Below the pieces are notes generated by a model that was not told the DNA's origin, ran no database searches, and saw nothing but the letters and a program-made list of their open reading frames with translations. Of a stretch of DNA of 35,252 bases, positions 14,844 to 24,776 are shown piece after piece. How positions within the stretch are numbered: the first letter of the stretch is position 1; each line of letters starts with the position of its first letter. The position numbers and the translations under genes were made by a program. Origin of the DNA: Tannerella sp. (GTDB lineage Bacteria > Bacteroidota > Bacteroidia > Bacteroidales > Tannerellaceae); the NCBI GenBank assembly GCA_031270465.1, contig JAISXP010000172.1, forward strand, positions 1 through 35,252. The letters are read 5' to 3'.

Positions 14844-15032
14844 ATGGCTAAAAAAGTAAAAGGCAACAGGATACAGGTAATCCTCGAATGTACGGAGCAT
14901 AAGAACAGCGGTATGCCGGGGACGTCGCGCTACATCACGACGAAAAACAGGAAGAATACGACACAGCGGCTGGAACTGAAAAAATACAACCCCGTACTGA
15001 AAAAGGTTACATTGCATAAAGAAATTAAATAA
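14844..15032 (+). CDS. rpmG: Large ribosomal subunit protein bL33
   Basis: Protein of 62 residues: [20 protein letters not shown], then [22 protein letters not shown] and a basic tail, as in bL33. Only one Cys remains (ECTEH), so this is the zinc-free type. A purine-rich AGGAGG ribosome-binding site lies 9 nt before the ATG. It is separated from rpmB by 19 bp. Confidence 0.96.
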
Positions 15033-15046
15033 CAGGAGATTAACCC

Positions 15047-15199
15047 ATGGCAAAAAAAGCAGTTGCAACATTTAAAAAAGGCGAGGGACGCACTTATTCC
15101 AAAGTTATCAGGATGGTAAAGTCTCCAAAAACAGGAGCCTATATCTTCCAGGAAGAAATGGTGCCCAACGAAACCGTAAAGGATTATTTTGCGAAATAA
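15047..15199 (+). CDS. DUF4295 family microprotein
   Basis: Protein of 50 residues, starting MAKKAVATFKKGEG and ending VKDYFAK; very basic (many Lys). It lies 14 bp after rpmG behind an AGGAG site. DUF4295 proteins are small, conserved in Bacteroidota, and regularly follow rpmB-rpmG. Context and charge suggest association with the ribosome, but no function is established. It is the last gene before the terminator. Confidence 0.9.
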   Translation: MAKKAVATFKKGEGRTYSKVIRMVKSPKTGAYIFQEEMVPNETVKDYFAK

Positions 15200-15230
15200 T
15201 CTTTCACAGAAACGAAAAGGATAACGCGTG

Positions 15231-15262
15231 GCCGCCGGATTGATTTCCGTGCGGCTTTTTTT
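15231..15262 (+). terminator. Intrinsic terminator of the rpmB operon
   Basis: GCCGC (15231-15235) pairs with GCGGC (15251-15255) and is followed by seven T residues (15256-15262). It lies 32 bp after the DUF4295 stop. Confidence 0.8.
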
Positions 15263-15343
15263 ACTGTGTGTTACAGCTAATACTGCACCTTTGGAATACA
15301 CCTTGTTTTGCGAACGGACGAAAAATATACCGCAAACGTGGTA

Positions 15344-15374
15344 TTGACACAATGCCTGCCCTACCCTACTTTTG
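15344..15374 (+). promoter_or_regulatory. Promoter upstream of the frameshifted small gene
   Basis: TTG (15344-15346), a 20-bp spacer and TACTTTTG (15367-15374), close to consensus. The first ATG after it is at 15389. Confidence 0.6.
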
Positions 15375-15388
15375 CAGAAACATTTGTA

Positions 15389-15531
15389 ATGAAGAATCCG
15401 TATAAATTTAAAATGAAGACGGCTACGTGGTGTATCCGCTGGAAAACCTGTACCACGGTAACTGGCGCAACTACTACGATCCCGACTTCGACTGGGGTCT
15501 GTTTGTCGCCGTTTTTCCGAAGGCAGATTAG
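15389..15531 (+). pseudogene. Small hypothetical gene broken by a frameshift
   Basis: A near-consensus promoter leads to ATG at 15389, reading MKNPYKFK. From about 15412 the protein-like signal moves to another frame: residues such as EDGYVVYPLENLYHGN, then YYDPDFDWGLFVAVFPKAD and TAG at 15529-15531. The second frame has no start codon of its own and a TAA at 15409. One indel near 15410-15414 would join the two into a protein of about 46 residues. I do not recognise the family. It is either a recent pseudogene or a sequencing error. The 85-residue open frame at 15308-15565 is the out-of-frame reading of the same region. Confidence 0.5.
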
Positions 15532-15573
15532 CGGGATGAACGTGCTTTACCCGCGTGCAGCATAAATGCAAAG

Positions 15574-15613
15574 GAAGCAGTCCGCTCGCAATGATTTGTT
15601 CACGGACTGCTTC
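15574..15613 (-). terminator. Inverted repeat downstream of susD, probable terminator
   Basis: GAAGCAGTCCG (15574-15584) and CGGACTGCTTC (15603-15613) form a perfect 11-bp stem with an 18-nt loop, 62 bp after the susD stop. On the minus strand it is followed by CTTTGCATTT, a poor T-run, so termination may be inefficient or Rho-assisted. Confidence 0.55.
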
Positions 15614-15675
15614 GATCCACATTAACTAAAACAATATCGAATGGCTATATCCTTTTCATTTCATGCCTGCTCTGT

Positions 15676-17445
15676 TCAGTATCCCGGATTCTGTGCTATG
15701 CCCAGATCGTTTCCGCTCAGCCCGCCGGGAATGGGGAAGCGGTAGAACTTGCCGTTCACGTTGTCGTATTTCTTGTGAAGATGCGTATAAATCTTGGCAA
15801 AGAACGGATAGTTTGTCGAGGCGGGGTATGTGGCGCCCTCCTCTTCCGGTCCGAACCTGGCGACGATGGATGACACGTCGCGGTAGTCTTCCTTGAAATA
15901 CTCATAGTTGCTCACCTTCAGCACCGTTTGAATCAGTTTGCGCCAGCGGACAAGGTTCACCCAGTTGCGCTGTTCGAAGAACTGTTCCAGCTTGTATTCA
16001 TTTTCCAAATCGTTTTGCGTGAGTGCTGTGAGCCTGCTCAGCCCGGCGCGTTCTCTGATTTGGTTGATTTCCGCAAGTCCCCTGTCACCGCTGTTGAGGT
16101 AGAATTTGGCTTCCGCCTTGTGGAGCAGCACGTCGGCAAGGCGTATTTCCACGCGGTTGATGTTGTTGGGCTGTCCCGCATAGTTCACGCCCTGGTCGGG
16201 AGCGACTTCGATGAGCGCCGCCCTGTTGTAGCGGTGAATCCACTTGGCATAGCGCGGCGAGGTGACGGGGAATGTGAACTCGTACTTCCTGTAGTTTTCA
16301 GGCACATCGGGAGTGGCAGAGCCTGTCTTCTCGTTGGCATTGTAGAGTTGCGCCGTGATGGAGAGGCGTTTGCGCTTGTCGCCCGCTTCGAACCAGTCGA
16401 GCAGGGTCACGTCGGCAGGGCCAATGTGGTTGTCGGTATAGAGGTCGAAACCGAACGTGAAGGGGCAATGCGTCTGGTGGTTGCCCTGGCTGTCGCCGTT
16501 GCCGTCGCCGTCGTGGTGGATGGTGAAGATATGCTCCGCCGAACGGTTTTCCGACTGCACGCCCCACAAGCTCTCGAAGTTGGCTTCCAGTTGGAAGTTG
16601 CCGCTGTTGATCACCCTGTCGGCATGTTCCACCACCTTTTGCAACCGTGCATTGTCCCACTGCGGGGCGGCGGGGTCGGTTTTGCCGCCGGCGATGGCGC
16701 CCGTCTCCGCCTGTGTGAGCGGTTTACCTGCCCATTGCAGGTAGGCGCGCGCCAGAATGGCATTGGCCGACCCCTTGCTCGGGTTGGAGCGGTTGATGTC
16801 GAAGTCGGGCAACAGTTCTTCGGCTTCCGTCAAATCCGTGACAATCTGCGTATAGACTTCGTCGATCGACTTGCGCGCCGTGCGTTCGGCATTCGCGGGG
16901 CTGGGCGACGTGAAAACCGGGACTTCGCCCCACAGTTGCACAAGGTAAAGGTAAGCCAGTCCGCGTATAAACTTTGCCCTGCCCTTTGCCAGATCAATGG
17001 TGGCCTGCGTGAGGCTGCCGGTGGCGTATGCCGAGTCGAGTTTGGCAACGGCTTTGTTTGCCTCGCCGATGCTCACGTAGAGATAATTGAATATCTTGGT
17101 AGGATACCAATTATTTTTGTCGGTTTCAAAACGGCTTACTAAAGGACCGTCCGCACTGTCGTCGCCTTCAAAACTGATGGTCGATTCCGTAGCCGATTCC
17201 AGAAGGAATGAAAACGACGAACTCAGCCGTCCCCAGTCGTAGTACGCGCCTGCGGCGAGGGCAAGCGCTTCCTTTTCGCTCTTGATGGGCGAATCCCATG
17301 AGATGACTTCGCCCGGTTCGGGTTCGGGTGGCTCAGGCTCTTTCTTTACATCATCATCGTCACTGCATGAAACAAAGGAAAATAATGTTGTTGTCAACAC
17401 GGCAAACAAGGTTGCCAAAACTTTCCAGGTAATTGCTTTTTTCAT
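15676..17445 (-). CDS. SusD/RagB-family outer-membrane nutrient-binding lipoprotein
   Basis: Protein of 589 residues. The lipoprotein signal peptide ends FSFVSC (Cys27), followed by an acidic stretch SDDDD and Pro/Glu-rich linker that fits surface export of lipoproteins. The SusD-like N-terminal TPR region follows (NYLYVSIGEANKAVAKLD, then KFIRGLAYLYLVQLWGEVPVF, the diagnostic RALAYFYLVQLFGDVPL-type motif). The C-terminal domain has the EIRLADVLLHKAEA motif and ends with LGIAQNPGY. SusD proteins cap the SusC channel and bind the ligand. The SusC partner gene directly upstream is broken, so this protein may have no working channel. Glycan specificity cannot be read from sequence; no glycoside hydrolase gene lies nearby. 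Confidence 0.93.
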   Translation of the reverse strand: MKKAITWKVLATLFAVLTTTLFSFVSCSDDDDVKKEPEPPEPEPGEVISWDSPIKSEKEALALAAGAYYDWGRLSSSFSFLLESATESTISFEGDDSADGPLVSRFETDKNNWYPTKIFNYLYVSIGEANKAVAKLDSAYATGSLTQATIDLAKGRAKFIRGLAYLYLVQLWGEVPVFTSPSPANAERTARKSIDEVYTQIVTDLTEAEELLPDFDINRSNPSKGSANAILARAYLQWAGKPLTQAETGAIAGGKTDPAAPQWDNARLQKVVEHADRVINSGNFQLEANFESLWGVQSENRSAEHIFTIHHDGDGNGDSQGNHQTHCPFTFGFDLYTDNHIGPADVTLLDWFEAGDKRKRLSITAQLYNANEKTGSATPDVPENYRKYEFTFPVTSPRYAKWIHRYNRAALIEVAPDQGVNYAGQPNNINRVEIRLADVLLHKAEAKFYLNSGDRGLAEINQIRERAGLSRLTALTQNDLENEYKLEQFFEQRNWVNLVRWRKLIQTVLKVSNYEYFKEDYRDVSSIVARFGPEEEGATYPASTNYPFFAKIYTHLHKKYDNVNGKFYRFPIPGGLSGNDLGIAQNPGY

Positions 17446-17514: not shown

Positions 17515-18624
17515 TCAAAACGAAAAGCTTGCGCCCAGCAGGACGGTTCTTGCCATCGGATAGGTACCCAGGTCTGTACCGCCGGCTATTTCGGGGTCAT
17601 ACCCCCTGTATCGCGTGAGCGTGAACAGGTTTTGGACTGTTGCAAAGAGACGCAGGTCAATCTTTGGGGCGACCGTCAGCCTGTAGCCTGCCGTCAGCGT
17701 TTTCAGCCGCAGGTAGGAAGCGTCTTCGATGTACCGGCTGTCCAGTTCGGACGAAAACCTGCTCTGCGTGATCTTCGGGACAGTGCGGGAGGGATTGTCG
17801 GGCGTCCATGCATCCAGCAGCGCTGTTGCCATGTTGTAACTGTCGGTGGGGATTTCCAGAAAGCGCCGCAGTTGATTGTACACTTTGTTACCCTGCGCCC
17901 CCTGAAGGGACACGTACAGGTCGAAGCGACCGTAATTCAGCGTATTCGACAGTCCGAAGATGTATTCGGGCTGTCGGCTGCCCAATGTTACCCTGTCCCG
18001 GGAATCGATGTGATTGTCGCCGTTTTTGTCGTAATATTTCGGGTCGCCCGGCTGCAGCGTATTGTAAGAGGGGGAAGTCGGCAGCGTGGAAACGTCCTCG
18101 CCCTGTTGCACTACGCCTTCAAACCGCAGGCCGTAGAACTGTCCCGTCGCCTCGCCCACCTTCAGTATTTCCACGCCGCTGACCGTCATCTCCGCGACGT
18201 CTTCGTAGAGCGCCGTTATGCGGTTGAGATTGCGGGCTGCATTGGCGGCAACCGCCCATCGCCATTTGCGACTGTCCAGCAGCGTAGCGTTTAGACTCAA
18301 TTCAATGCCCCTGTTGGTAACGTTTCCGGCGTTTACCAGCTGAGAGTTGCTCTCGCCCAGCTTCGGCGGAATACGCAGCAGCAGGTCGGACGTCTTTTTG
18401 TAGTAAACGTCCACCGTTGCCGTAAGGCGGTTGTTCCACAGTCCGGCGTCGATACCGGCATTATATTGTGCGGTACTTTCCCAGCGCAGGTCTTCGTTGC
18501 CGCTGTTGTTGACGATATATACCGTTCCGCCACCGTAGCGCGCTGCGGTAATGGTTTGCAGGAACTCGTATTCGCCGATGCCTTCCTGATTACCCACCGT
18601 ACCCCCGCTGAGGCGCAGCTTCAA
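17515..18624 (-). pseudogene. SusC/RagA-family TonB-dependent receptor, C-terminal fragment of a broken gene
   Basis: Encodes the last roughly 370 residues of a SusC beta-barrel, in the same frame as the N-terminal fragment: LKLRLSGGTVGNQEGIGEYEFL, then KTSDLLLRIP, and YDPEIAGGTDLGTYPMARTVLLGASFSF with the C-terminal Phe of outer-membrane barrels. It has no signal peptide or plug and only a TTG as a possible start, so it cannot work alone. It lies downstream of the in-frame TGA carried by a 66-bp insertion. SusD follows 69 bp later. Confidence 0.85.
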
Positions 18625-18625
18625 C
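18596..18625. repeat. Direct repeat copy 1 (30 bp) in the broken susC
   Basis: An identical 30-bp sequence occurs at 18662-18691. In the gene's frame both copies encode LKLRLSGGTV. The repeat period is 66 bp. Confidence 0.95.
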
Positions 18626-18661
18626 TTACTATAACCTGCTCAATCCATTTTTCCAGCAAAG
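18626..18661. other. 36-bp insert carrying an in-frame stop within susC
   Basis: It lies between the two 30-bp repeats. Read in the susC frame (minus strand) it gives FAGKMD, TGA (18642-18640), then AGYSK. The insert plus one repeat is 66 bp, a multiple of three, so the only damage is the stop codon. Confidence 0.9.
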
Positions 18662-20673
18662 ACCGTACCCCCGCTGAGGCGCAGCTTCAACAGCGAAAGG
18701 GTGCGGCCGTTAGCCAGAAACGGTTCTTCGCTCACATTCCACGACAGGCCGACGGAAGGGAAATTCTTCCTTCGATGCTTTTTCGCCAGCCGCGTGGAAT
18801 AGTCGCTGCGGAAGTTTGCCGTAAGATGGTAGCGGCTCAGGAACGAATAATTCACCCTTCCCAGCAGCGAATAAAGGTCTCCTGCGGATGTTCCCGTAAC
18901 GGGTGGCAAATATTCCCCGCCATCCTGCAGGTTGTTGAATCCCAGCGTTTCGATGGTATAATTGGAACTTGAACCGGAGGCAAAGTTCTTTTTTGTTGTT
19001 TCCTGCGTATAGCCGGCAAGGATGTCGAAAGCGTGCCGGTCGTTGACAGCCCTGCCGTAGCTGACCGTGTATTCGGTAAGGATGGTCTGCTGCTGTTTGT
19101 TGCCTACGCCACCCACACCGTTCAGCGACAGTCCGATGGCTGCATATGACGGTGCGAAATAGTTTTGCGTGGCATGGCTGAGGTTGCCGCCCAGGTTCAC
19201 TTTTGCCGCAAGTCCTTCCAGCGGCGAAATCTGCACGTAAGCGCTGCCCAGCATGACGGTATGGATGTTCTGCGCCGAACTGTTTTTCAAGTCCGAAATG
19301 GGGTTTGCCGTCTGGCTGCCCTTGCGAAGATAGGCGTATTCAAAAGGATTGCTGTAATTATAGTTGCCATCCGGAGCGTACAGCGGCACCACCGGTGGAA
19401 TATAAAGCGCGTATGTCAGTGAATTGGCAATACCGTGCGAATAGGGAGAATCGTTGTAGTTCACATTTTCAAATGTAGTCAGCGTGTTTTGCGTGCTTTT
19501 GCTCGCCGTAACGGTGATGCCCGCTGTCACGATGTGCGACAGTCTCTTGTCCAGATTTACCCTGCCGACAAAACGGTCGAAGCCCGAATTGAGGATGATG
19601 CCGTCCTGTGTCAGGTAGTTGCCCGAAACGAAATAGCGCGTGGTTTCGTCGCCGCCACCGAGCGAAACATCGTGGGTCTGCGCAATGCCCGTCTGAAGCA
19701 CCGCGCTTTGCCAGTCGTAAGTCGGAAGCAGCGGAATGTCGCCGTCGGCATACTGTCCCTTGTTGTTGAAGTAGTCCTTTTGCAGGCGCGCCCACTGCAG
19801 GCCGGTCAATAAGTCAAGTTTTCGCGACGAACGGCTGAATCCGACGGAATAGCGGTAATCCACCGAAGCGCCGTCGCGTCTTCCCTTTTTGGTGGTGATG
19901 ATAATCACTCCATTGGAACCGCGGGAGCCGTAAATTGCGGTTGCCGATACGTCTTTCAGTATCTCAATGGATTCTATGTCGGACGGATTCAGCAGGTTGA
20001 GCGGATTGATTTCTCCCTCAATGGCTCCAAGACCGGTTTGCACGGACGATTTGTCGCTGTAAAAGATAAAGCCGTCAATTACGTAAAGCGGGTCGTTTCC
20101 GGCATTGACCGAATTGCCGCCGCGAATACGGATGCTTGCCGCCGCACCGGGCTGCCCCGACGCCTGCGTCACGTTCACGCCTGCCGCCGCACCACTTAGC
20201 AGAGCGTCTACCGATGGCGCAATATTGTAGCTTAAATGTGCTTTGGAAACAGTCGAAATGGCGCCCGTCAGTTCTTTTCTTTTTTGCGTGCCGTAACCCA
20301 CAACGACCACTTCTTTCAGAAAGTTTGTATTTTCAGCGAGCGAAATTACAAGCGGAGCAGTGTAATTGCTTATAACCGTCTCTACGCTTTTGTATCCTAA
20401 ATAACTGACAGATATTGTTGCGGGAAGCGATTGCGGATGAACGGTGAAAAAACCGTTTTCGTCCGCTACGGTGCCTGTTTTTTCATTGACGAGGAAAATC
20501 CCGGCTCCGGGAAGAGGCTCGCCGGTTTTCTCATCCAAAACTTGCCCTTTGAACGTCAGCGGGCCGTTGGACTGGGAAAATCCAGTCAATGGATATGTGC
20601 TGAACAAAATGCTGCACAAAAAAATAATCCAAAAACATTCGTCAATGTAAAATAATTTGTCTACTTTTGCCAT
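18640..20673 (-). pseudogene. SusC/RagA-family TonB-dependent receptor, N-terminal fragment of a broken gene
   Basis: Encodes 677 residues: a signal peptide (about 1-34, ending GFSQ), a carboxypeptidase-regulatory-like domain (about 40-115), the TonB-box/plug start LKEVVVVGYGTQKRKELTG (about 118-136), the plug with PLYVIDGF and SIEILKDVSATAIYGSRGSNGVI, and about half the barrel. It stops at TGA 18640 inside a 66-bp insertion. No STN domain is present, so unlike the receptor at the left edge it is not FecR-coupled. Without the extra 66 bp the gene would run 17515-20673 and encode 1030 residues, normal for SusC. The break may be a real mutation, a switchable state or an assembly error. Confidence 0.9.
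18662..18691. repeat. Direct repeat copy 2 (30 bp) in the broken susC
   Basis: Exact copy of 18596-18625, found in its natural place for the N-terminal reading (SLLKLRLSGGTV). Confidence 0.95.
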
Positions 20674-20737: not shown

Positions 20738-20788
20738 GTTTTAATACACGGTCAGTTACAATCAACATTTATTTTGTAAATAACAGTG

Positions 20789-20796
20789 CAAAGGTA
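20789..20796 (-). promoter_or_regulatory. Promoter -7 box for susC-susD
   Basis: TACCTTTG on the minus strand matches TAnnTTTG. The -33 region overlaps an inverted repeat and lacks TTTG, as expected for a promoter that needs an activator. The leader would be about 110 nt and contain the hairpin at 20695-20737. Confidence 0.55.
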
Positions 20797-20815
20797 TTGC
20801 TGTTTTTTGGTACGG

Positions 20816-20839
20816 AAAATACCATAAATGGGGTATTTT
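20816..20839. promoter_or_regulatory. Operator-like inverted repeat upstream of susC
   Basis: AAAATACC (20816-20823) and GGTATTTT (20832-20839) are perfect 8-bp inverted arms separated by 8 bp, centred about 32 bp upstream of the -7 box. The symmetry and position suit a dimeric regulator. The regulator is not in this window. Confidence 0.5.
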
Positions 20840-20928
20840 TATTCGTCTGTCATCCCCGCTCCGTCTCCTTTTAGCGCGTATATCATTGCTGCTGACAATA
20901 TTATCCGCATAAGATTTGCGTTTCTCAT
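20839..20928 (-). CDS. Possible 29-residue peptide
   Basis: ATG at 20928 to TAA at 20839, beginning MRNANLMRIILSAAMIYALK and then acidic. It has a short hydrophobic segment at residues 6-18. No clear promoter or ribosome-binding site is seen, and its end overlaps the operator-like repeat, so it may be chance. Confidence 0.15.
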   Translation of the reverse strand: MRNANLMRIILSAAMIYALKGDGAGMTDE

Positions 20929-21083
20929 AATAATTAATGTATAACAGTAATAATATGGAATATGGCTGAATTTTTTTTTGAGACGCTATTGTTTTTGAGC
21001 CTGAATCCTGTTTCCGGCAAAAAAATCCATACTCATCTCCGTTCATTGTCCAGCCCCGGAGTGAAGGTGTCGGAAAAGTGAAA

Positions 21084-21115
21084 GCAGGAAGAAAACAGAA
21101 TCGTTTTCTCCCTGC
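21084..21115 (-). other. Imperfect 13-bp hairpin in the gene-poor stretch
   Basis: Arms 21084-21096 and 21103-21115 pair over 13 bp around a 6-nt loop. In minus-strand RNA the single mismatch becomes a G-U pair, so the structure is favoured in that direction. It lies about 200 nt downstream of the orphan promoter at 21323-21354 and could end or fold that transcript. Confidence 0.4.
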
Positions 21116-21322
21116 TTTGTATCGAGGAAAGCCGCACAATATGGATGTGAAAAACTCCGTATGACAGGATTTGAGTGCTTTACTGCCTTTGTAATCCGCC
21201 GTGCGAAGCATGTCCCGAAGGATGCGGCCCGCCATTGACAGCAAGAGCGTGTCTCGGAATTTAAAATAAATCTGATGAGTTTACCAATCGAACATGTGCG
21301 GCTTAACTCATATCTTGTCATG

Positions 21323-21354
21323 CAAATGTAGGCGATTATTATGAGATGAGCAAA
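21323..21354 (-). promoter_or_regulatory. Orphan consensus promoter with no recognisable gene
   Basis: On the minus strand TTTG (21354-21351), a 20-bp spacer and TACATTTG (21330-21323), a perfect Bacteroidales promoter. Transcription would begin near 21316 and run toward susC through a region without a recognisable protein. Confidence 0.65.
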
Positions 21355-21399
21355 TTTTTTCGATAAAAATTGCGATTTTAACATTCTTCGCCCGTAAAA

Positions 21400-21432
21400 A
21401 AAAGAGACGTTTCGTTTGGAAACGTCTCTTTT
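21400..21432 (-). terminator. Intrinsic terminator of the thrS-infC-rpmI-rplT group
   Basis: AAAAGAGACGTTTC (21400-21413), loop GTTTG, GAAACGTCTCTTTT (21419-21432). On the minus strand the stem runs into a T-tract (eight T residues). It lies 18 bp after the rplT stop. Confidence 0.88.
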
Positions 21433-21450
21433 CGCTTGTTTTACATCACA

Positions 21451-21795
21451 TTACTTTACTTTTTCTACTATAGCTTTGAATGCCTCCGGATGATTGACTG
21501 CAAGGTCGGCGAGTACTTTGCGGTTGATTTCGATGCCGGCGTCATGCAACGCCCCCATCAAATGCGAGTACGACAAACCTTCCAGCCGGGCAGCGGCATT
21601 GATTCGTTGGATCCACAGCGCGCGGAAATTGCGTTTTTTGTTCCGGCGGTCGCGGAATGCATACGTCAACCCTTTTTCCCACGTGTTTTTTGCTACTGTC
21701 CACACATTTTTACGAGCGCCGTAATAACCTCTCGTAAGTTTCAGAATCCGTTTTCTTTTTGCTCTCGAAGCAACATGATTTACTGATCTTGGCAT
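21451..21795 (-). CDS. rplT: Large ribosomal subunit protein bL20
   Basis: Protein of 114 residues, normal length: [20 protein letters not shown], then [15 protein letters not shown] and [21 protein letters not shown], the bL20 signature. It binds 23S rRNA early in 50S assembly. It is the last gene of the infC-rpmI-rplT cluster. The 103-bp gap to rpmI is unusually long for an operon of small ribosomal genes and could hold the bL20 autoregulatory site known in other bacteria, but I cannot show the structure. Confidence 0.97.
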
Positions 21796-21898
21796 AATTT
21801 TGAAATTGTGAATGTCAGCGTCATCTTTTACGATGCTCTTAGGCGCTGAGCACTCGGTTAATAAAAAAATATGATAACTTTCTCGTTTGGCGGATGAT

Positions 21899-22096
21899 TT
21901 ATTTAAGGCAAAGCAACCGCTTTACATTATTTGCATCCACATTCGCGACCAGACCGATATGGGTCAGATTGCGTTTCTGCTTTTTTGTCTTCTTCGTCAG
22001 AATGTGACTTTTAAAAGCATGTTTTCTCTTGATTTTACCTGTTCCGGTAAGGGCAAACCTCTTTTTGGCGCCGGAATTAGTTTTTAATTTTGGCAT
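21899..22096 (-). CDS. rpmI: Large ribosomal subunit protein bL35
   Basis: Protein of 65 residues: [20 protein letters not shown], then [13 protein letters not shown], the bL35 signature. Basic, normal length. It is placed between infC and rplT as in most bacteria, 50 bp after infC. Confidence 0.97.
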
Positions 22097-22146
22097 TTCT
22101 ATTTACTTTTTTTATATTAATACTCAATTATATTCTGTTTTTACTG

Positions 22147-22743
22147 TTATTCTTTTTCTGTATTCGGCCTGGCCTGCTGTTTGGACGACGGCGATTTGGC
22201 TGCGCTTTTTTTCGGCGAGAGCATAATCGTCATTCGCTTTCCTTCGAGCAACGGCATTTGGTCTACTTTCGCAGATTCTTCCAAATCGTTTGCGAAACGA
22301 AGCAACAGCACTTCTCCCTGTTCTTTAAACAAAATCGAACGTCCTTTGAAAAATACGTACGCTTTCACTTTCGCTCCTTCTTCAAGGAAACTCTTGGCAT
22401 GACGCAGTTTGAAGTTGTAATCGTGGTCGTCCGTCTGAGGGCCGAACCGGATTTCCTTCACCACAATCTTTACGGATTTGGCTTTCTGCTCTTTCTGCCG
22501 CTTCTTTTGCTGATAGAGAAATTTCTGGTATTCGGTTATCCTGCATACGGGCGGCTCTGCATTGGGCGATATCTCCACAAGATCCAATTCCATATCTTCA
22601 GCCATTTGCAAAGCCTTTCCAATTTGATAAATGCCATTTGTCACATTATCACCTACCAAGCGTACTTCAGGAACTCGAATCCGCTCATTGATTCTATACA
22701 ATTCTTTCACACGATCGTTTCTCATGCGTCGATTATCATTAAT
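22147..22743 (-). CDS. infC: Translation initiation factor IF-3, probably starting at an AUU codon
   Basis: IF-3 discriminates the initiator tRNA and start codon and keeps 30S subunits apart. The first in-frame ATG (22725) gives 192 residues: [21 protein letters not shown], then [23 protein letters not shown] and [19 protein letters not shown]. That ATG has no ribosome-binding site at a proper distance. Six codons upstream in frame is ATT (22743-22741), and 6 nt before it is a full GGAGGT (22755-22750). An ATT start would give 198 residues beginning MNDNRRMRN. An AUU start used for IF-3 autoregulation is established for infC in enterobacteria, so I choose it. A basic, Ser/Lys-rich C-terminal tail of about 20 residues extends past the usual end. 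Confidence 0.9.
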
Positions 22744-22749
22744 AAGTGT

Positions 22750-22755
22750 ACCTCC
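22750..22755 (-). promoter_or_regulatory. Strong Shine-Dalgarno site deciding the infC start
   Basis: GGAGGT (in the context AAGGAGGT) on the minus strand, 6 nt from ATT 22743 and 24 nt from the first ATG at 22725. Ten nt downstream it also faces an out-of-frame ATG opening a five-codon frame that ends in ATGA over the infC ATG, an alternative by translational coupling. Confidence 0.65.
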
Positions 22756-22776
22756 TTTTTATATTTTATTTATACT

Positions 22777-24735
22777 TTATTTTGTTTGTTCCTTTGCCAA
22801 CCGGGTCATCGTTTCATTGATTTCCGCTGTCAAAATTGCTGCAAAGGTAGTAATTTTCATCGAACCTTTATCACCTTCGCCCTGTTTTCTTACAGAAACT
22901 TCGTTATTTTCTATTTCTTTTTCGCCGACAATCAGCATGTACGGGATTCTTTTCAACTCATTGTCACGTATTTTGCGTCCAACCTTCTCATTGCGGTCAT
23001 CGACGGACACGCGGATGTCCTGTGCTTCCAGTTCTGCGGCAATCCGGCGGGCATAGTCGTTGTATTTCTCGCTGACAGGCATCACGATGACCTGGTCGGG
23101 TGTGAGCCACAGCGGAAATTTTCCGCCCGTATGTTCGATCAGTACGGCGACGAAACGTTCCATCGAGCCGAAAGGTGCACGGTGAATCATCACCGGACGA
23201 TGTTTTTTGTTGTCCTCGCCGGTATATTCGAGGTCGAAACGTTCGGGCAGATTGTAGTCCACCTGAATGGTGCCCAGCTGCCAGCGGCGACCGAGGGCGT
23301 CTTTCACCATAAAGTCCAGTTTAGGTCCGTAAAAGGCGGCTTCGCCTGTTTCGATTCGTGCCGGAAGCCCCTTTTCTTCACAGGCTTCGACGATGGCTCG
23401 TTCGGCTTTTTCCCAGTTTTCGTCCGAGCCGATGTATTTTTCTTTGTCGTCGGGGTCTCGCAGAGAGATCTGCGCTTCGAAATTTTCAAAGTCAAGCGCC
23501 TTGAAGATGATGAAGATGATGTCCATCACTTTCATAAATTCGGCTTTCAACTGGTCGGGACAGCAAAACAGGTGTGCGTCGTCCTGCGTGAAACCGCGCA
23601 CGCGCGTCAGGCCGTGCAATTCGCCGCTCTGTTCGTAGCGATAGACGGTTCCGAACTCTGCAAAGCGGATGGGCAAGTCCCTGTATGAGCGTGGAAAAGC
23701 TTTGTATATCTCGCAATGGTGCGGGCAGTTCATCGGTTTCAGCAGAAATTCTTCGCCTTCTTGCGGTGTAAGGATCGGCTTGAACGAATCTTTGCCGTAT
23801 TTTTCATAATGTCCGGAAGTGACGTAGAGTTGTTTGCCGCCGATGTGTGGCGTGATCACCTGCTGATAGCCGTATTTTTTCTGGATTCGTTTCAGGAAAT
23901 CTTCCAGTCGCAGTCGCAGTTGCGTTCCCCTCGGCAACCACAGCGGCAATCCGGCGCCGACATTCGTTGAGAAAGTGAACAGTTCGAGGTCTTTACCCAC
24001 TTTGCGGTGATCGCGTTTTTTTGCTTCTTCCAGCAGGGCAAGATATTCGTCCAGCAATTTCTTTTTCGGGAACGTGATGCCGTAGAGTCGTACCAGTTGT
24101 TTGCGTTTTTCGTCGCCGCGCCAGTATGCTCCGGCTACGCTCATTATTTTCACTGCCTTGATGTACGACGTGTCGGGAAGGTGCGGACCGCGGCACAAGT
24201 CCGTGAAACCGCCCTGGGAATAGATCGTGATTTGTCCATCTTCCAGTTCGCTGATCAGTTCCGTTTTATATGTTTCCTTACGCTCGTCGAACATTTTAAG
24301 CGCGTCGGTTTTGGAAATATTTTTCCGTTGGATCGGTTCTTTTTTTGCTGCAAATTCCAGCATTGAGGCTTCGATTCTGGCGAAGTCGCTGTCGGTGATG
24401 GTCTGGTCGCCAAGGTCGACGTCGTAATAAAATCCGTTTTCGATGGCGGGGCCAATGCCGAATTTGACGCCCGGATATAAATGCTGTAAAGCTTCGGCCA
24501 TCAGGTGAGCACTTGAATGCCAGTATGTATGCTTTCCTTCTTCGTCGTCCCATTTGAGCAGTTGGAACGTGGCGTCCTGTGACAGTGGGCGGTTCAAATC
24601 CCAGACTTCACCATTCACTTTGGCGGCCAGTACGCTTTCGGACAGGCGCGAACTGATACTTTCCGCTATCTGCAACGAAGTAGTGCCTTCGGAATATTCT
24701 CTGACGGAATTATCCGGAAATGTTATTTTTATCAT
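22777..24735 (-). CDS. thrS: Threonine-tRNA ligase
   Basis: Protein of 652 residues from the ATG at 24735 ([14 protein letters not shown]); a start 12 codons earlier falls before the expected transcription start. Domains: TGS (about 1-62), the editing domain with [11 protein letters not shown] (His-x3-His) and the SAD/second ligand cluster, then the class II catalytic core with [36 protein letters not shown] (motif 2) and [12 protein letters not shown] (motif 3), and the C-terminal anticodon-binding domain ([10 protein letters not shown] onward). It charges tRNA-Thr. infC follows 33 bp after the stop, as in many bacteria. Confidence 0.97.
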
Positions 24736-24768
24736 CGTCTTATGAAACTGTTCTTTTAATTCAGGATG

Positions 24769-24776
24769 CAAAGATA
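24769..24776 (-). promoter_or_regulatory. Promoter -7 box for thrS and the genes after it
   Basis: TATCTTTG on the minus strand fits TAnnTTTG; no good TTTG is seen 19-21 bp upstream. The box overlaps the upstream candidate ATG at 24771 and so supports the start at 24735. Confidence 0.55.

Follow-up and report, generated by a model that had tools for sequence, protein, structure and literature searches.

Phase variation of SusC/RagA receptors in Bacteroidales works by DNA inversion. Genes can also become insertional pseudogenes by the capture of a short piece, and non-canonical CRISPR integration has reportedly been seen in vivo by Nivala and colleagues in 2018. For a type II-A Cas1-Cas2, PMC6895254 describes off-target integration in vitro into non-CRISPR DNA, guanine being preferred. 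We compared with these systems a broken susC gene of a Tannerella sp. genome, located in a window that is a whole contig of 35,252 nucleotides; the assembly comprises 183 contigs and 3.03 Mb and is 90.66% complete. Like insertional pseudogenes of the captured-piece type, the locus carries an unrelated piece between duplicated target bases, has one broken frame and displays no other decay that could be seen. It shares with SusC/RagA phase variation the kind of gene affected, a SusC receptor gene, but differs from it: no inverted repeats were reported for positions 18300-19000, the aligned relatives lack the unit, and the assembly offers nothing from which to regenerate it. With non-canonical CRISPR integration it has in common the lengths of 30 and 36 bp, which are those of the repeat and of the commonest spacer in two genomes of the same genus, whereas its own assembly holds neither Cas1 nor such a repeat and the insert has no mobile-element match beyond chance. 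Literature searches on filler-type duplications and on SusC switching brought up nothing that we considered close, and we make no claim that such events are unpublished.

The gene is interrupted by a 66-bp unit, consisting of 36 bp of unique sequence and one copy of an exact direct repeat of 30 bp, whose two copies are 100% identical and start 66 bp apart (Table 1). Read on the minus strand from 20673 to 17515, the frame comprises 1053 codons, both stops included, and terminates at a stop codon; its one internal stop is the TGA within the insert. As the length of the unit is a multiple of 3, both parts of susC lie in one frame. On recheck, the repeat coordinates, the 66-bp period and the sole in-frame stop given in a preliminary description of this DNA were found to be exact, and its arithmetic for a restored gene of 1030 residues was correct, this product being computed, with no deletion made. 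It also held true that susC is broken solely by the 66-bp unit, being otherwise one open frame; an intact SusD gene adjoins it. The G+C content of the insert is 36%, against 54% for the susC span. By our estimate, which assumes uniform bases, an exact 30-bp repeat within 400 bp would arise in 35 kb with a probability of about 1e-11; the repeat is not a product of chance.

Table 1. Positions of the features; those preceded by an L handle lie in other stretches of DNA, all others in the window.
Feature	Position	Strand	Remarks
susC 5' part	18640..20673	-	677 residues; CarboxypepD_reg-like domain, TonB plug and first part of receptor; ends at in-frame TGA
susC 3' part	17515..18624	-	same frame; remaining beta-barrel to natural stop
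First 30-bp repeat copy (5'-proximal in susC)	18662..18691	-	within LKLRLSGGTV
36-bp unique insert	18626..18661	-	in-frame TGA 18642-18640; no donor found in searches
Second 30-bp repeat copy	18596..18625	-	
susD	15676..17445	-	intact frame, downstream partner of broken susC; SusD_RagB 1.4e-24, SusD-like_3 6.2e-22
Short tandem arrays	L101 49-250; L095 18021-18200; L105 2793-2880		
Short tandem arrays	L111 292-400; L112 6104-6270; L109 16414-16600		
L011-type protein family, ~320 residues	L011 3584-4546	minus	
L011-type protein family, own-genome member	L033 1501-2403		

Membership of the SusC/RagA family of TonB-linked outer-membrane nutrient receptors was apparent along the whole protein, which is matched by the TIGR04056 profile: the 5' part corresponds to profile positions 2-609 with 494.1 bits (cut-off 368.25) and the 3' part to positions 600-981 with 299 bits, which, taken alone, is under the whole-protein cut-off. 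The two halves overlap by ten positions only, and these represent the duplicated stretch. The CarboxypepD_reg-like domain, the plug and the barrel are all present and a SusD partner adjoins; the reading frame is interrupted by the TGA, making this a broken member of the family. Just upstream of susC and susD are a Bacteroidales-1 RNA (21124-21303, minus strand) and a threonyl-tRNA synthetase stretch, both within positions 20762-24771 of the window, a region that, judged by eye, presumably also carries ribosomal protein genes. On its other side, susD is followed by a reading frame of 230 residues (14930-15622) that matches nothing in Pfam or NCBIfam.

Over the 369 residues that make up the 3' part, the nearest two SusC relatives show 84% and 83% identity; their records are MAG Prevotellaceae bacterium isolate Im510_bin102 and MAG Dysgonamonadaceae bacterium isolate Cc175_bin105, presumably termite-gut metagenome genomes, although the titles do not say so. 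In two related loci the 30-bp stretch is present in single copy and runs on without interruption, namely L136, with about 80% identical DNA, and L137, with about 78%, whose contig has only 43 bases before the match. We assayed the spacing at the site in 96 SusC loci (19 from genomes of the same genus, 1 paralogue of this genome and 76 from the search for relatives) by counting the bases between segments upstream and downstream of it, the smallest difference being kept for a locus with several alignments. Alignment on both sides was obtained for 84 loci, with no difference in spacing in 45 and a difference of -18 to +12 in the other 39; the frame was the same in all 84, and none showed a difference of about +66 bp. 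The remaining 12 aligned downstream only (3), upstream only (5) or not at all (4). Since the site is single-copy in relatives and an excess of 66 bp occurs in none of the 84 loci, the unit is derived and, within what was compared, confined to this genome; judged from these alignments, the single-copy state of the 30-bp stretch is the ancestral one. Comparison with the relatives also revealed purifying selection on both parts of the gene, with dN/dS of about 0.11 in each half: against L136, dN and dS were 0.106 and 0.955 in the 5' part and 0.098 and 0.807 in the 3' part; against L137, they were 0.094 and 1.062 in the 3' part. Hence selection had maintained the gene until recently, and the break is either recent or artefactual.

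The 36-mer has no second place in its own genome assembly, incomplete as this is, when up to 3 mismatches are allowed. A 27-mer and a 23-mer from the insert, the latter extending into the repeat, were found in none of the 40 other genomes of the genus, and another 27-mer in none of the 392 other sampled genomes of the order; a paralogue containing the 36-bp segment was likewise found in none of these sets. An exact 30-mer had no match in 84,980 species genomes, a collection from which the own genome or near ones were possibly left out. Three pieces of the insert, a 22-mer, a 21-mer and an 18-mer, had no match in viral contigs; a 17-mer occurs in six of them, which over the 36 bp match at 17-24 positions only, with no extension. 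Phage and plasmid searches gave only matches with E-values of at least 1. Taken together, the viral contigs, phages, plasmids and 393 sampled genomes of the order yielded no match beyond chance to the insert as a possible protospacer.

We tentatively favour, at close to an even chance, a single private event in which a 36-bp fragment was inserted, its 30-bp target was duplicated and susC was thereby recently inactivated. Two strands would have been opened or joined 30 bp apart at the susC site, a short fragment of 36 bp linked in between them and the gaps then filled, leaving one copy of the 30 bp on each side. Translation would then end at the TGA, with 677 of some 1030 residues made and the final portion of the barrel missing; such a receptor would be non-functional, whereas susD stays intact. 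The unit probably exists in living cells, as opposed to being an error of assembly, and the truncated frame suggests that the function of this SusC receptor has been lost. The mechanism is deduced from the geometry of the product, and of the explanations considered a general staggered join with fill-in commits us to least. The 30-bp duplication is longer than the target duplications of common insertion sequences. Plain tandem duplication fails to account for the site, the relatives being without the 36 bp. Counting against the capture of a fragment, neither an enzyme nor a donor came to light, in so fragmented and incomplete an assembly the donor or a second allele may be missing, and an assembly chimera would have the same appearance. 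Taken as it is, the locus is a gene broken once in an ordinary way, and it counsels care in interpreting SusC pseudogenes in draft assemblies.

An alternative that we doubt, but take seriously, is that the unit exists in no cell, or that it joins pieces of different strains, in what is apparently a short-read metagenome-type assembly. The number of contigs and the degree of completeness lend themselves to such an error, and the open remainder of susC under purifying selection is what would be expected of a non-biological break; moreover, in some assemblers neighbouring unitigs overlap by k-1, which for k=31 is likewise 30 bp. No assembly-wide signature was seen, however, when 40 further stretches, with 469,585 readable bases in all, were scanned: they contain no second pair of about 30 bp around a unique insert. 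Nor does the assembly offer another occurrence of the insert that could have been mixed in. The contigs of the two nearest relatives have k119 names, and a word of 119 bases would span the whole 96-bp structure if the same pipeline was used here. The specific error put forward in the preliminary description, a misassembly of two near-identical susC genes, finds no second near-identical copy in the assembly, where the best other place is 68% identical over 157 bp of a 1101-bp query; a single assembly chimera may nonetheless have arisen. That similarity, the only other one to the site in the genome, bears equally on an illegitimate, out-of-register recombination with a second SusC paralogue as the origin of the insert. 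Although partners for it exist, with 23 matches to SusC-type genes in the genome, the broken gene included, we find this origin very unlikely: the insert occurs at no other place of the assembly, and the motifs KMDW and AGYSK, by which the insert had been likened to the segment preceding LKLR in SusC paralogues, stand before LKLR in none of 19 other SusC sequences, one of them from this genome. A second SusC allele as the source also found no backing in the searches, the 36-mer having no second place in the genome and its pieces occurring in 0 of 40 genomes of the genus and 0 of 392 of the order. We give just as little credence to a phase-variable off state that would be reversed by deletion between the 30-bp repeats. 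Spontaneous deletion between exact 30-bp repeats separated by 36 bp is possible in principle, but not one of the 84 loci with alignment on both sides of the site has the unit, and a return to the off state would have no template in the assembly, where the 36 bp occur only this once, so that the switch would be one-way. Phase variation of this susC, as had been suggested, is thus unsupported: the unit was seen only here, and a deletion would not be reversible without another source of the 36 bp.

It is also conceivable, and in our view unlikely, that the join was of a specific kind, the off-target integration by Cas1-Cas2 of a single 36-bp spacer in susC with duplication of a 30-bp target of repeat length, giving in effect a one-spacer array outside any CRISPR locus. 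The geometry of the product fits, with a repeat-length duplication around one piece of spacer length, and the arrays of two genomes of the genus, G026 and G025, have 30-bp repeats and 36 bp as their commonest spacer length (spacers of 34-40 bp, 36 in 21 of 65, in G026; 34-38 bp, 36 in 28 of 66, in G025). The CRISPR locus of G026 is of type III-A with Cas1b and Cas2. That repeat type is present in only 2 of the 41 genus genomes, however, and of the nine array loci at places of Cas1 in the genus only two fit 30/36, the others differing in geometry when exact cores are compared. Cas1 itself occurs in 8 of the 41 genomes, or 6 of the 13 with a completeness of 90% or more and a contamination of 5% or less. 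The own assembly, at its completeness of 90.66%, has no Cas1, no RAMP protein and no such 30-bp CRISPR repeat at up to 3 mismatches, and in the window a script requiring three exact copies detected no CRISPR array. At the level of its bases, the similarity of the 30-bp stretch to the two real CRISPR repeats does not convince: four comparisons gave 7, 7, 10 and 12 identities of 30, and the best of these was reached by 48 of 2000 shuffles. The borders of the repeat in susC are a G at one end and an A, on its own strand, at the other. In PMC6895254 the off-target events are described as likely half-site integrations and not full duplications, which counts against this origin, as do the lack of any phage, viral or plasmid match of the insert beyond chance and the fact that the idea was formed after the lengths had been seen. 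We keep as an improbable lead the reading that the unit is a natural chromosomal record of off-target Cas1-Cas2 integration, with inactivation of a receptor gene, in a lineage with some 30/36 arrays. If true, it would mean that in nature the spacer-acquisition machinery can mutate host genes, and genomes could be scanned for a simple footprint, a repeat-length duplication around a spacer-length piece. Long CRISPR arrays with 66-68 exact repeats lie at L072 1795-13990 (G026) and L073 4191-8638 (G025).

The scan of the 40 other stretches covered about 16% of the genome and recorded exact repeats of at least 16 bp at distances of up to 400 bp. The close repeats that it revealed were mainly multi-copy tandem arrays, simple repeats, repetitive coding-type DNA and, judged by eye, one tRNA-like duplicated stretch. 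Nearest to isolated pairs were 22 bp at distance 94 (L099) and 23 bp at distance 41 (L116); a further near-isolated pair, of 28 bp at distance 99, lies inside a repetitive stretch (L105). Short tandem arrays with periods of 21 or 42 bp are found on several contigs of this Tannerella sp. genome.

In a relative, the gene upstream of susC (L011) contains a match to 17 bases of the insert, with alignment scores of 34-36 against 27 for the best of 20 shuffles. We rejected the family of this gene as the donor: a 20-mer, searched with up to 2 mismatches in the 41 genus genomes, has 9 places outside the own genome, of which 5 are in the family and 4 are unrelated, and a control gave 1 hit; the other 16 bases of the insert are unmatched in the family, and the own genome's copy of the gene differs at this position. 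The family has matches in 29 of the 41 genus genomes and, by coordinates, adjoins a susC in six of them (G008, G006, G016, G030, G024 and G017). The member tested has no Pfam or NCBIfam match, and our impression, which is no more than that, is of a phosphate-type substrate-binding protein.
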